A DNA stretch of 46,665 nucleotides. Origin: Candidatus Cybelea tumulisoli. Lineage in GTDB: Bacteria; Vulcanimicrobiota; Vulcanimicrobiia; Vulcanimicrobiales; Vulcanimicrobiaceae. The notes below the pieces were generated by a model that had not been told where the DNA came from, made no database searches, and saw only the letters and a list, made by a program, of their open reading frames with translations. Numbering within the stretch: the first letter of the stretch is position 1; each line of letters begins with the position of its first letter. Positions 6,763-35,947 of the stretch are shown here, piece by piece. The position numbers and the translations under genes were made by a program. The stretch is taken from positions 2,096-48,760 of the forward strand of contig PMTY01000133.1 of assembly GCA_003167155.1 (NCBI GenBank), written 5' to 3'.

Positions 6763-7634
6763 CGCTCAGTCCTTCGACTGCGCTCAGGATGACAATGGTG
6801 ATGGCGCTCGCGGCGCTCATTGCGGCGGGTCCTTCGATCGTCGTCACCGGCCAGCTGCTCGACTATCAGGACGGCTTCGTCTTCTTCACGACCGGCGACG
6901 GTTTCCGGGTCGCGCCCGCAATCGTGATCCACGACGCAAAAACCGGAGGCCCGACCAAGCTCGTTCCGGCGGCGCGCATCTGGGCCCGCGCCACTTTTGA
7001 CGCCACCGGCACGGTGACCGAACTCGATCTTTCGCGGGCACCGTTGCCGCCCGAGGGTAACTTCGCCGACGTGACGCGCTTTGCGGTCGCAGCCTCGTCG
7101 CCGGCGCCGAATCCGGATCTGCTTGCATACGCGAATCTCGCGACCCCGGCACCCGGTGGCGGTGCCCCGACGAACGTGAGCTACTCGGGCAAGCCGGTGC
7201 TCGTGACATTCATCGTGCAGGTCCCGCCGACGACGCCGCTTACGTCGAGCGTGTATATCTCGACCGATCAAAGCGCATGGAACGCCCAAGCGATCCCCAT
7301 GGACCGCATCGACGCCCTGCACTATGAGATCACGCGCCGCTATCCGTCGGGCACGATCTTCAACTATCTCTACGACCGTGGATCGCTTCAGTCGGAGGAG
7401 ATCGCGCAAAACGGCCTCTCCCGCCCGCCGCGCAAGTTCGTCGTTCCCGATGCCGACGTACGGACGGTCAGCGATACGGTTTACGCATGGCAAGACCAAG
7501 TGCCGGGAAGCATCAATCAGCAGCAGCCGCAAATCATGCCGACGCCCTACAACCCCGCACCGTTCCCGAATCTTCCGCCGGGGCTGCCGCCGCCCCAACC
7601 GCCGCAATCGCACAAGCCCCCGCCGGCGCGCTGA
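6759..7634 (+). CDS. Secreted protein with CBM20-like carbohydrate-binding fold
   Basis: The reading frame begins with an ATG overlapping the preceding TGA (ATGA). The first 10 codons are, however, a dispersed 26-bp repeat, and the natural start may be the ATG at 6795, which has AGGA 5 nt upstream inside the repeat. A hydrophobic signal (VMALAALIAAG) follows, then a short beta-rich domain (SIVVTGQLLDYQDGFVFFTT). At about residues 145-255 lies a segment with the pattern VTFIVQVPP, TSSVYISTDQSAWNAQAIPM, a Tyr, PSGTIFNYLYDRG, EE, R.F.VP and DTVYAWQD. This order resembles starch-binding-type (CBM20/48) beta-sandwich domains. The tail is proline-rich (residues 265-291). Probable role: periplasmic or surface glycan binding. 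The fold assignment is by eye and needs a profile search. Confidence 0.62.
   Translation: MTLSPSTALRMTMVMALAALIAAGPSIVVTGQLLDYQDGFVFFTTGDGFRVAPAIVIHDAKTGGPTKLVPAARIWARATFDATGTVTELDLSRAPLPPEGNFADVTRFAVAASSPAPNPDLLAYANLATPAPGGGAPTNVSYSGKPVLVTFIVQVPPTTPLTSSVYISTDQSAWNAQAIPMDRIDALHYEITRRYPSGTIFNYLYDRGSLQSEEIAQNGLSRPPRKFVVPDADVRTVSDTVYAWQDQVPGSINQQQPQIMPTPYNPAPFPNLPPGLPPPQPPQSHKPPPAR
6769..6794 (-). repeat. Dispersed 26-bp repeat, copy 1
   Basis: On the minus strand this reads TGTCATCCTGAGCGCAGTCG followed by AAGGAC. It is identical over all 26 bases to the copy at 31775-31800 on the plus strand and 24/26 identical to the copy at 35922-35947. It sits at the junction of the LptD-like gene and the next gene, inside the annotated start. 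On the plus strand its end, CAGGATGACA, places AGGA just upstream of an ATG. Confidence 0.85.
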
Positions 7635-16586: not shown

Positions 16587-18002
16587 TCAGTTGTTATCCG
16601 GCGGCCGCGGGTCGGGCGGCTGGTGCAGGAAGTAGTTTTTGCCGTAGGGAGCTTGAATCTGGACGAACTTGCGCGGCGACTGGGTGAAGTCGAAGGCATC
16701 GTCCGGCGGGTTGGCACGGTGGTCGCTGGCGGCCAGCCAGTGCAGGCTAAACTGTTCCTCGACGAACTTTAGAATGCTGCCGTGCTCGTAGTGCGTGTGC
16801 GAAACGTAGCGCTTCTTGGCGTATGGCGAGATGATCAGCAGCGGGACGCGAAACCCTAAACCGTCATAGTCGACATAGGCGGGAGGTTCCGGATCGTACC
16901 AGAGACCCGGATCGTCCCAGAAGACGAAGATCGCGCTGGTGGACCAGAACTTCGATTCACCGACCGCGTTGACGAGCGAAGCGACCCACGAGGGGCCGGT
17001 ATTCCCGTTACACATCGCGTGGTCGGAGTTCTTGCAGGTCGGCGTGATCCAAGTCACCGTTGCGAGCTTGCCGCTGGGAACGTCGGTGAGGAACTGCGTC
17101 GCGTTGGTGATTACGTCTTTCTTCCAGTCCGGTCCATAACAAATATGGTGAATCGCCTGGTAGGCGCTCCAAATGCCGTTGGTCTCCGTGAAGGTGGGGC
17201 CCACGCCCATGTCGCCGCGGCAGGGGTCTGGTGCGGTGCCGATGGGATACGTGTAGAACGCCCAAGGCAACTTGGCATCGTCGAGCTCGTCGCCGAGTGT
17301 TTTATTATCCAAGCAAACCGGGATCTGCTTTGTGTCCTCGCGATCCTGGCCGATCGTCCAGATCTCGTCGGTTTTACCGCCCGGACAGCCCCAGTCGGTG
17401 CCGGGATAGTTGCTTGTGGCGCTGGCCTGACCAGCGATGATGTACTGGTGCGAGACGAAGCTGCTGACGTCGAAGTTCGACGCATACATCTGATCGGCCA
17501 AGACATACTGCTTGGCCATCGAAAAATACGGCGCCGTCTCACTCTGCGGAACGTACGAGTACGGCGGATACTCGATCGGACAACGCGGCTTCCCCGTCTT
17601 TTTGCAGGTCCACCCAATCTTATCGAAGCCGTTCATCCGGCAATTCTTGCCCGGCATCTTTGGAGTAGCGTTGCACGCCGCAAAAAACGCAGCAGCGTTG
17701 TGCGAGACGTCCCACGTCGTCGCCAGGCTGATCGGCTTGAGCGTGATCTTTTGATTCTTTGAGTCGAGCCCGTAGGTCGCGGTCTTGGCGCCGGGGTAGC
17801 CGTAAAAAAGATTGTTGAAGCTGCGATTCTCTTGAATGATGATAATGACGTGCTGAATTTTTTTCGGGCCCGCAAGCGGTTCGATCGCCGTTTGGCCCGG
17901 ATGGAGATCGACTACCGGAACCGCGGGCGATGAAGCTACACTACCCTTACACGCGCAAAGGAGTAATGTCATCGCCGCGATCGCGAGCGGAAGCTTTCTC
18001 AC
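16587..18002 (-). CDS. Lipoprotein phosphoesterase (phospholipase C / acid phosphatase AcpA family), copy A
   Basis: 471 aa from a GTG with AGGAG 4 nt upstream. The signal ends LLLCAC, a lipobox, so it is membrane-anchored by Cys 18. The phosphoesterase core (PF04185-like) starts IQHVIIIIQENRSFNNLFYG, with metal or active-site residues Glu-Asn in QENRSF. It continues with VLADQMYASNFDVSSFVSHQ, ITPTCKNSDHAMCNG, TSAIFVFWDDPG and VPLLIISPYAKKRYVSHTHY. These enzymes hydrolyse phosphate esters such as phosphatidylcholine or phosphomonoesters outside the cytoplasm. It is the second of two tandem paralogues, 7 bp after copy B. The segment after NSDH differs from copy B (AMCNG instead of GGNGSD), so substrate range may have diverged. 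Cys-rich: several Cys pairs suggest disulfides. Confidence 0.88.
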   Translation of the reverse strand: MRKLPLAIAAMTLLLCACKGSVASSPAVPVVDLHPGQTAIEPLAGPKKIQHVIIIIQENRSFNNLFYGYPGAKTATYGLDSKNQKITLKPISLATTWDVSHNAAAFFAACNATPKMPGKNCRMNGFDKIGWTCKKTGKPRCPIEYPPYSYVPQSETAPYFSMAKQYVLADQMYASNFDVSSFVSHQYIIAGQASATSNYPGTDWGCPGGKTDEIWTIGQDREDTKQIPVCLDNKTLGDELDDAKLPWAFYTYPIGTAPDPCRGDMGVGPTFTETNGIWSAYQAIHHICYGPDWKKDVITNATQFLTDVPSGKLATVTWITPTCKNSDHAMCNGNTGPSWVASLVNAVGESKFWSTSAIFVFWDDPGLWYDPEPPAYVDYDGLGFRVPLLIISPYAKKRYVSHTHYEHGSILKFVEEQFSLHWLAASDHRANPPDDAFDFTQSPRKFVQIQAPYGKNYFLHQPPDPRPPDNN

Positions 18003-18009
18003 GGCGCTC

Positions 18010-19473
18010 CTAGTCGTTATCCGGCGGACGCGTGTCGAGCGGCTGGAGCATGAAATAGTCCGCGTTATACTTCGCCTGGATCGGAACGAACTTCCGTGGT
18101 GACTGGTTGAAATTGAAGGCGTCGGCCGGCGAGTTCGCGCGCTTGTCGCTGGCGGCCAGCCAGTGTAGGCCGAACTGTTCCTCGACGAACTTTAGGATGC
18201 TGCCATGCTCGTAGTGGGTGTGCGAAACGAGCCCTTTTCTTGCGTATGGTGAAATAATGAGCAACGGAAGGCGGTATCCCAGGCTATCGTAATCGCTGTT
18301 CTTTAGGTAGGCCGGAGGCTCGGGGTCGTACCAGCCGCCCGAGTCGTCCCAAAAGATGAAGATCGCAGTGGAATCCCAGAACTGCGATTCGCCAACCGCA
18401 TTGACGAGCGACGACACCCAGGACGGCCCCGTATCAGATCCATTGCCGCCGTGGTCGGAGTTTGCGTACGTCGGCGTGAGCCAGGTCACTGCCGCAAGAT
18501 TGCCGCCTTTCACATCGCTAAGGAACTTTTGCGGCGGCGATTTGACGTTGTCCCAGTCCTTACCGTAGCAAATGTGCTTGATAGCTTGATACGCGCTCCA
18601 AATTGCGGTTCGGTAGCCATTGCCGTCCGACTCGGTGCCGCTGCCGCAGGTCGTCCCGCTGCCCTCGGCCTTGAGTGGAACTGCGTAGAACGCCCACGAC
18701 AGGCCTGCCTTATCGAGCTCGTCGCCAAGCGTTCCCCCCGGAGGATCCCAGCAAGGGAAGATCGTCTTGGAATCCTTTAAATTGCGGTCCGCGCCAAGGA
18801 CCTTAATGGCATCACCCGGAGCACCCGGACAGCCCCACAATGCATCGGGATAGTCATACGTATGATCGGGGTTTACGCCCGCGATGATGTACTGATGCGA
18901 CTCGAAGCTACTGATGTCGAAGTCCGAAGCATACATCTCGTCAGCTAAGACGTATTGGCTTGCCATAGAAAAATATGGCTTGGTCTGGCTTTGCGGTACG
19001 TACGCGTACGGCGGATACTTGACTCCTTTCGGGCATTTCGGATGACCGTTGCCGCCGCACCCCCACGTCTCGTTGTTGAAGCCGTTCATCCGACAGTCCG
19101 TGCCCGGGATCTTGCCCGTGCCGTTGCAGGAGAGCATATAACCGTTGGCATTATGCTGGAGGTCCCACGGCGTTGCGATCGTGACCGGCTGCAGCTCGAT
19201 CTTCTGGCCGCTGGAGTCGTAGCCGTAGGTTGCCGTCTTAGCCCCGGGATAGCCGTAAAAGAGATTGTTGAAACTGCGATTCTCTTGAACGATGATGACG
19301 ACATGCTGGATCTTGCTCTGCGACGCACGCCGCTGGATCGGCTCGCCTATTCGTTGCAGGGTGAGGCCCGGAAGGCCCGGCGACGAAGCGAGCCGGCCGT
19401 TTCCCCCGCAGGCGCAGAGAACGGCCGATACTCCTATCGCCAGAGCCAGGTTCGGCAACGAAATGCAACGCAC
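18010..19473 (-). CDS. Lipoprotein phosphoesterase (phospholipase C / acid phosphatase AcpA family), copy B
   Basis: 487 aa; start GTG at 19473 with AAAGGA 8 nt upstream. Signal peptide with lipobox AVLCAC. The same core as copy A: IQHVVIIVQENRSFNNLFYG, YVLADEMYASDFDISSFESH, WLTPTYANSDHGGNGSDTGP, TAIFIFWDDSGGWYDPEPPA and RLPLLIISPYARKGLVSHTH. The C-terminal 120 residues are nearly the same in both proteins (HTHYEHGSILKFVEEQF, then LHWLAASD.RAN, SPRKFV.IQA.Y). This copy keeps the family-like NSDHGG. The two genes are co-directional and 7 bp apart, so they are a tandem duplication transcribed together. The 106-bp upstream region contains AT-rich TATTTATA but no clear -35 box. Confidence 0.88.
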   Translation of the reverse strand: MRCISLPNLALAIGVSAVLCACGGNGRLASSPGLPGLTLQRIGEPIQRRASQSKIQHVVIIVQENRSFNNLFYGYPGAKTATYGYDSSGQKIELQPVTIATPWDLQHNANGYMLSCNGTGKIPGTDCRMNGFNNETWGCGGNGHPKCPKGVKYPPYAYVPQSQTKPYFSMASQYVLADEMYASDFDISSFESHQYIIAGVNPDHTYDYPDALWGCPGAPGDAIKVLGADRNLKDSKTIFPCWDPPGGTLGDELDKAGLSWAFYAVPLKAEGSGTTCGSGTESDGNGYRTAIWSAYQAIKHICYGKDWDNVKSPPQKFLSDVKGGNLAAVTWLTPTYANSDHGGNGSDTGPSWVSSLVNAVGESQFWDSTAIFIFWDDSGGWYDPEPPAYLKNSDYDSLGYRLPLLIISPYARKGLVSHTHYEHGSILKFVEEQFGLHWLAASDKRANSPADAFNFNQSPRKFVPIQAKYNADYFMLQPLDTRPPDND

Positions 19474-20151: not shown

Positions 20152-20186
20152 CTTGGGCCCTCCGCGCTTTCCGCTCGGGGTGACAA
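20152..20186 (-). repeat. Degenerate member of the dispersed repeat family
   Basis: On the minus strand this reads GTTGTCACCCCGAGCGGAAA and continues GCGCGGAGGGCCC, the same layout as the 26-bp repeat (TGTCATCCTGAGCG... GAAGGA) with substitutions. It lies in the 76-bp gap between the divergent Ig-like lipoprotein and GT2 genes. Membership is by resemblance only. Confidence 0.45.
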
Positions 20187-22468: not shown

Positions 22469-22476
22469 CCGCGAGT

Positions 22477-22523
22477 TTATCCTGAGCGCTTCGACTACGC
22501 TCAGCACAGGCTTCGTCGAAGGG
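22477..22523 (+). repeat. Dispersed repeat, long variant with hairpin
   Basis: Reads TTATCCTGAGCGCTTCGACT and on to GGCTTCGTCGAAGGGC. It shares the TCCTGAGCG and GTCGAAGG blocks of the 26-bp repeat. Inside, CTGAGCG (22482-22488) pairs with CGCTCAG (22498-22504) around a 9-nt loop. It lies exactly at the junction after the O-antigen-ligase-like stop and before the GT-C protein, whose frame reads through it. Confidence 0.68.
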
Positions 22524-31774: not shown

Positions 31775-31800
31775 TGTCATCCTGAGCGCAGTCGAAGGAC
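31775..31800 (+). repeat. Dispersed 26-bp repeat, copy 2
   Basis: TGTCATCCTGAGCGCAGTCG followed by AAGGAC; exact match, in opposite orientation, to 6769-6794. It lies in the 141-bp space between divergent padR and rqcP, upstream of the padR -35 box and 47 bp before rqcP. Confidence 0.85.
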
Positions 31801-35190: not shown

Positions 35191-35932
35191 AACCATCATC
35201 GCCGGTAACTGGAAGATGCACAAGACCGCGGCCGAGACCGCCGCGTTCTTCGACGAGTTCCTGCCGCGCGTCGCAGCGCTCGGCGCAGAGATAGAGATCG
35301 TCATTGCGCCGCCATTTACTTCCCTGCAGTTGGCGGGTGAGCGTTTGGCGGAGACGCGGGTGCGCTTGGGAGCGCAGACGATGCATTGGGAACTCCGAGG
35401 CGCCTTCACCGGCGAAGTCAGCGCACCGATGCTGCGCGAGCTTGGCGTCTCACACGTAATTCTCGGGCATTCGGAGCGCCGCGCATATTGTGACGAAACC
35501 GATCGCACGGTCAACTTGAAGGTGCATACGGCACTCGCGCAGGGCCTGGTGCCGATCGTCTGCGTCGGCGAGACGCTTGAGGAGCGCCGCGCCGGTGCGA
35601 CCGACGACCGCGTCGTATCGCAGACGCGCGCCGCATTTCACGGCGTACCGGAGGCCGATCTCGCGAAGGTCGCGATCGCCTACGAGCCGATTTGGGCGAT
35701 CGGCACCGGCCAGAACTGCGAACCCCAGGAAGCCAATAGGGTGATGGCGACGATTCGTCGCGCGATCGACGGCTTGAGCGCAACGCCGATTCTCTACGGC
35801 GGAAGCATGACGGCGGTCAACGTTGCGTCGTACATGGAACGCTCCGATATCAACGGTGGCCTGGTCGGAGGCGCCTCGCTCGATCCCGACGGCTTTGCAA
35901 CCCTGATCGAACGAGCCGCGGTGTCATCCTGA
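35180..35932 (+). CDS. tpiA: Triosephosphate isomerase
   Basis: 250 aa; TTG start overlapping pgk. Catalytic residues in place: Lys in IIAGNWKMHKTA, His in VILGHSERRAYC, Glu in IAYEPIWAIGTGQN, phosphate loop ILYGGSMTAVN and GGLVGGASLDPDGF. Interconverts dihydroxyacetone phosphate and glyceraldehyde-3-phosphate. The last residues (AAVSS, then TGA) and the stop codon itself are contributed by the dispersed repeat at 35922-35947, so the natural C-terminus has been replaced or the repeat arrived exactly at the end. Confidence 0.97.
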   Translation: MNARTIIAGNWKMHKTAAETAAFFDEFLPRVAALGAEIEIVIAPPFTSLQLAGERLAETRVRLGAQTMHWELRGAFTGEVSAPMLRELGVSHVILGHSERRAYCDETDRTVNLKVHTALAQGLVPIVCVGETLEERRAGATDDRVVSQTRAAFHGVPEADLAKVAIAYEPIWAIGTGQNCEPQEANRVMATIRRAIDGLSATPILYGGSMTAVNVASYMERSDINGGLVGGASLDPDGFATLIERAAVSS

Positions 35933-35947
35933 GCACAGTCGAAGGAG
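35922..35947 (+). repeat. Dispersed 26-bp repeat, copy 3
   Basis: TGTCATCCTGAGCACAGTCG followed by AAGGAG, 24/26 to copies 1 and 2. It provides the tpiA stop codon (TGA at 35930-35932) and the AAGGAG (35942-35947) that is the only ribosome-site-like sequence before gpmI. Confidence 0.82.

Follow-up and report, generated by a model that had tools for sequence, protein, structure and literature searches.

The repeats of 26-28 nt that recur at gene boundaries in this DNA are probably non-autonomous, REP-like mobile hairpins that have been gained at new sites through the action of an enzyme working in trans. The best reading is that they represent a GTCA-tagged type that is mobilized in trans and whose insertions are tolerated at gene boundaries. 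The window, the whole stretch of 46,665 nucleotides that was analyzed, belongs to contig C94 of a genome of 3.7 Mb in 201 contigs. It contains three near-identical 26-mers, at 6769-6794 on the minus strand and at 31775-31800 and 35922-35947 on the plus strand, exactly where the earlier note had placed them. The first two are the same at 26 of 26 positions, an identity that extends to 27 of 27, and the third matches them at 24 of 26. The pattern occurs three times in the window and never in 100 shuffles of it, with none expected by chance. The location of these copies at gene boundaries had also been described correctly. The unit at 6769-6794, with the core GTCATCCTGAGCGCAGTCGAAGGA, lies in the gap between two co-directional ORFs, the unit at 31775-31800 between the divergently oriented genes of a PadR regulator and an S4-domain protein, and the unit at 35922-35947 at the tpiA-gpmI junction just upstream of gpmI, where the TGA at 35930-35932 inside the repeat is the stop codon of tpiA. 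Two related forms had been proposed as well. The one at 22477-22523 stands as a plus-strand composite (22476-22523) in which an inverted unit (22488-22514) is nested in the tip of an outer unit, TCCTGAGC...GTCGAAGGG, and composites of this type are also found at loci L001, L078 and others. The form at 20152-20186 on the minus strand (GTCACCCCGAGCGGAAAGCGCGGAGGG) lacks the conserved tip, has no match to the tip patterns and is at best a degenerate relative. Elsewhere in the window, two paralogous neighbours on the minus strand (16587-18002 and 18010-19473) are ~75-80% identical in DNA over long stretches and represent a tandem gene duplication.

The unit is a hairpin of 26-28 nt, GTCAYNCT / GAGCGNAGTCGA / AGNRTGAC, and the consensus of the copies in the window's genome is GTCAYNCT-GAGCGNAGTCGA-AGNR(C/T)GA(C). 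The GTCA tag is present in at least 70 of the 86 copies in this genome and in most foreign copies. The stem of 4-8 bp is free in sequence while its complementarity is kept, and the tip is fixed, with GA...GA, GC...GC, GNA or YT, and one extra T; between GAGC and GTCGA, GNA or YT is found almost exclusively. In several phyla GTCA/TGAC lengthens the stem to 8 bp, so that both ends can pair and the unit is double-footed. Covariation was assessed with the 12-nt tip alone as bait, so that the arms were unselected. Stem pairs 1-4 are Watson-Crick in 90-97% of the foreign-phylum copies, with two to four pair types at each position and z values of 4.6-7.3 (up to 13-14 in viral contigs), although the rows are related sequences and the z values therefore overstate independence. 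This covariation shows that the hairpin is constrained and, together with the invariant GNA or YT tip, supports the reading of the units as mobile hairpins. Part of it could come from template-switch correction or repair of imperfect palindromes rather than from selection. d(GCGNAGC) is a DNA mini-hairpin of very high stability. As a structural inference, the tip can be read as a d(GCGNAGC) mini-hairpin plus a bulge, built from a tandem GA/GA mismatch, two G-C pairs, a GNA triloop and the extra T; for the unit with the extra T, a DNA folding programme predicts the outer stem alone. At locus L015 a second GA-GC-GCA-GC-GA mini-hairpin lengthens the tip (GAGCGAGCGCAGCGAGTCGA), as if the same motif had been stacked to make the tip grow. 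A third tip form, GAGCGNAGCGA, showed no covariation in the samples when searched without arms and is not claimed, although its full hairpin form has matches in viral contigs, those listed being a lower bound.

At least 84 matches with up to 3 mismatches are present genome-wide, against none for the reversed pattern and 0.018 predicted from base composition, and a second tip type (CTGAGCYTGTCGAAG) adds a further 61 exact copies. The stretches around the copies were annotated with a purpose-written simple gene finder (coding fraction 0.84), which placed 14 of 86 copies inside a CDS, 16 across a gene edge and 56 in intergenic DNA, the last divided into co-directional (28), convergent (13) and divergent (10) gaps and contig ends (5). 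The 14 copies inside predicted CDS compare with 77.5% of random positions in the same stretches (p=3e-33), a bias that supports the mobile-hairpin reading. The repeat is thus the dispersed, boundary-biased and REP-like family that had been suggested, and its translations are peptides of the SFDCAQDD and CHPERSEG type, as the earlier note had indicated. The further claim that no copy is mid-gene is true of the window only, since some of the 14 inside-CDS copies lie within enzymes; placement at gene boundaries is a strong bias and no absolute rule. Several of these copies survive as in-frame inserts, as seen by translation: an asd-like gene carries VILSAVEG, a Rieske oxygenase-like gene SFDSAQDD, and purA-like and add-like genes FAQGD-type repeats, all of these gene names being read off translations and not from family searches. 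Compared with the nearest relatives, the asd site has 36 additional nt and remains in frame.

Such placement could also be expected if the repeat had a function and were retained at gene ends by selection, as a terminator, an mRNA-stabilizing hairpin or a protein-binding site. The constraint on the hairpin, the intergenic bias and the stable RNA fold (-10 to -11 kcal/mol) are consistent with this explanation. However, copy number varies from 0 to 147 within one genus, both orientations are found at one orthologous junction, divergent and co-directional gaps alike are occupied, copies lie in frame within enzymes, and no Rfam family matches in the window, so that a selected function of this kind is improbable.

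The earlier note had proposed a comparison of empty and filled sites, and at orthologous sites among the congeners this comparison reveals insertions, with empty, filled, inverted and nested states all seen. The tpiA-gpmI junction (window 35922) is plain in eight congeners; a single direct unit is present in G000, G015 and G005, altered forms in G002 and G003, an inverted unit in G006, and in G010 a direct unit with an inverted one nested inside it. The site at window 6770 is filled in G006 and G015 and empty in G003 and G010, and in G015, G003 and G006 different units of the superfamily occupy the PadR/S4-domain gap (31775). All four close relatives lack a unit at the asd and L020 sites. These empty and filled states argue for gain at new sites. 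The clearest insertion event is at L009, where G000 and G010 have a single unit and G015 has a 27-nt unit, AATGTCATGCTGAGCGCAGTCGAAGCA, sitting between GCAGT and CGAAGGA in the tip of the host unit; G003 has the same nested arrangement with a few substitutions. The arms of the insert are unlike those of its host, it can be placed in one way only and the target shows no duplicated bases, and this clean insertion into another unit's tip at an orthologous site is a further support for mobility. The flanks at L020 are GC-rich and ambiguous for target-site duplication, and the species are 73-90% identical at the compared loci, a distance too great to settle target duplication in general.

By our own count, some superfamily unit is present at 33 of 51 relative-sites, which indicates that old sites have also been remodelled in place, and part of the variation therefore needs no transposition. 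Partial direct duplications with a period of 20-25 nt build arrays of up to ~18 units in G011, and these arrays likewise need none. The largest, L553 (G011 C1:1901900-1903600), is a tandem array in which ~18 hairpin units of the second type recur every 25 bases, and L556 and L555 (G006 and G003) contain about four partial direct duplications of a half unit with a 20-base period and a breakpoint in the tip. The idea that every head-to-tail partial copy is a nested insertion was rejected, because left halves outnumber right halves in several arrays, which are therefore partial tandem duplications; an upstream half unit is moderately associated with a downstream CGAAG (Fisher p=0.014). It could be supposed that DNA-level accidents are the whole explanation, with slippage, template switching at hairpins and gene conversion between units and no dedicated enzyme, and both the arrays and the remodelling at shared sites fit such a process. 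It is nonetheless unlikely to be sufficient, as it leaves unexplained the new copies at unrelated sites (asd, L020), the unit with different arms inside another unit, and the same 28-mer in unrelated phyla.

The distribution of the repeat is wide and patchy. Representative genomes of many phyla contain the exact 28-mer, in 62 stretches altogether, and the 31 carrier genomes that were searched contain 1-43 copies each. Closer to the window, counts in its own genus range from 0 to 147, and only 2 of 19 members of the family outside the genus have even one copy. The second tip type is also patchily distributed, and the near-complete genome G011 contains 172 of its units, in mosaic clusters. These are divided 47 to 125 between the two strands; tandem arrays explain at least part of the difference, as seen among the places listed, and no claim about replication strands is made. 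At least 120 stretches of viral contigs match the repeat, plasmids give few matches, mostly partial, and the repeat was not found in annotated phage records or phage isolates. Conserved inverted pairs ~20 bases apart, REPIN-like and with the foot CTCA instead of GTCA, are present in the viral contigs L254, L266 and L272. Inverted pairs and mosaic clusters of units occur in other genomes too; with the patchy spread over phyla and the variable copy number in the genus, they speak for mobile units. Most carriers are MAGs, as would be predicted if the repeat were an artefact that assembly or contamination had introduced into environmental genomes, but the isolate Bacteroides stercorirosoris DSM 26884 has 16 matches with up to 3 mismatches, which argues against a metagenome artefact, and variation at orthologous sites among congeners is ordered. 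An artefact is accordingly a negligible prospect.

Against the preferred explanation, no mobilizer was found, and the unit-flanked genes in the part of the genome that was searched are ordinary. A profile search for Y1_Tnp (PF01797), which gave a match in the E. coli control, found none in 18 congeners. Y1_Tnp is found in 8 of 10 class-level relatives, which hold essentially no repeat copies, and 24 of the 31 carriers searched in other groups have Y1 genes. None of the 70 Y1 loci in these other carriers is closely flanked by units, and two have second-type units more than 1 kb away. In the roughly 10% of the window's genome that was searched for genes flanked on both sides by units, three ordinary-looking genes and no mobilizer were found. 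The earlier note had pointed to a RAYT transposase as something to look for; within the genus none was found, and its role as the mobilizer there is not supported. The absence of Y1 from the genus and the unflanked Y1 loci elsewhere imply that the arrangement is not a standard REP/RAYT system.

The units might still be conventional REPs moved by a TnpA_REP (Y1) enzyme that was merely missed, was too divergent for the profile or was recently lost in the genus. Their tip is nearly equal to that of the RAYT-associated REP of Coxiella (PMC2817692), the Y1 genes of the other carriers would fit, and TnpA_REP genes are patchy and often lost, some subclasses having atypical or double-foot REPs (PMC6006769). 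The search results in the genus and at the Y1 loci stand against it, as do the near-complete G011, with its many second-type units and no Y1, and the tag GTCA in place of GT(A/G)G. This alternative is a serious possibility, yet one that we regard as doubtful.

In the preferred mechanism, of non-autonomous hairpins moved in trans, an enzyme would bind the extruded single strand and recognize the hairpin by its tip, as TnpA_REP/RAYT does with REPs. It would cut close to the extra T and immediately 5' of GTCA, and the cut unit would be joined elsewhere, including into the tips of other units. Selection would then purge most insertions in genes, so that survivors would be mainly at boundaries or in frame in tolerant protein loops; at boundaries, a unit could donate a stop codon (TGA) and the Shine-Dalgarno-like GAAGGA. 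Within the genus, the mobilizing enzyme would not be a recognizable Y1 transposase. A more specific version is put forward tentatively, as somewhat short of an even chance: an undescribed, GTCA-tagged REP-like superfamily, shared base for base by about ten phyla and moved by a non-Y1 enzyme, may insert readily into its own single-stranded tips without target-site duplication. SFDCAQDD and CHPERSEG have been unexplained translations in environmental genomes, and the repeat behind them now has an anatomy, a likely kinship with REPs, and a series of orthologous sites seen both empty and filled. The element is REP-like and yet flourishes in a genus that lacks the enzyme regarded as defining REPs, so that looking for its mobilizer becomes a concrete task. 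How a repeat of 28 bases could travel between unrelated phyla is a further question, and viral contigs are among its carriers.

Neither the repeat nor its peptides were found printed in this context in the open-licence literature, and the closest known relatives are the RAYT-associated REPs. The Coxiella burnetii REP is GTAGGTTGGGCTGAGCTTGCGAAGCCCAAC, that is, GTAG-GTTGGGCT-GAGC-TT-GC-GA-AGCCCAAC (Nunvar 2010, PMC2817692), and some enteric REPs carry AAGCGNAGCGC-type tips (PMC2817692). Like these, the unit is a short, extragenic, high-copy hairpin with a stem, a two-base mismatch, GC/GC and a TT or GNA tip, and the mismatch in the Coxiella REP is the same GA/GA. It differs in its GTCA tag, the extra T in the tip, the pairing of its ends as GTCA/TGAC and its identical sequence in many phyla. 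Measured against GTAG-type REPs, it is an imperfect palindrome with extragenic bias and high copy number; it lacks the GT(A/G)G foot, a Y1 gene in the genome (0 of 18 congeners) and a RAYT gene flanked by repeats. REPINs and BIMEs (Bertels and Rainey 2011, PMC3116915) resemble the inverted pairs, spaced by a few tens of bases, and the mosaic clusters of several carrier genomes, whereas the copies in the window's genome are mostly single units or direct partial repeats, with no cognate RAYT found. CGTC-tagged REPs are palindromic, have been described without a dedicated transposase and are sometimes within coding regions (PMC3733652), but they have a CGTC/TGTC tag, an 8-9 bp stem, a 4-5 base loop, a CCA tail and a different tip. 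TnpA_REP subclasses 2.4, 2.6 and 3 have double-foot or atypical REPs, some without GT[AG]G, which flank or interrupt a tnpA_REP gene, with in-frame insertion for 2.4 (PMC6006769); compared by description, the GTCA...TGAC unit is double-footed like them, with no adjoining tnpA_REP gene seen. Rickettsia palindromic elements (RPE), of 105-146 bp and restricted to Rickettsia, lie in frame in conserved enzymes whose products are still functional (PMC2229807). The unit resembles them in its in-frame insertion into conserved genes, at the asd site and, by translation, in other copies, and is unlike them in its length and its presence in many phyla. The small dispersed repeats of Nostoc (SDR5), whose mobilizer is not known, are 20-odd-base units that insert into other repeats, and by description alone they are alike in size and in this habit. 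The unit is most likely a REP-like hairpin with a different tag and, in this genus at least, with another mobilizing enzyme or one that was acquired and has since been lost.
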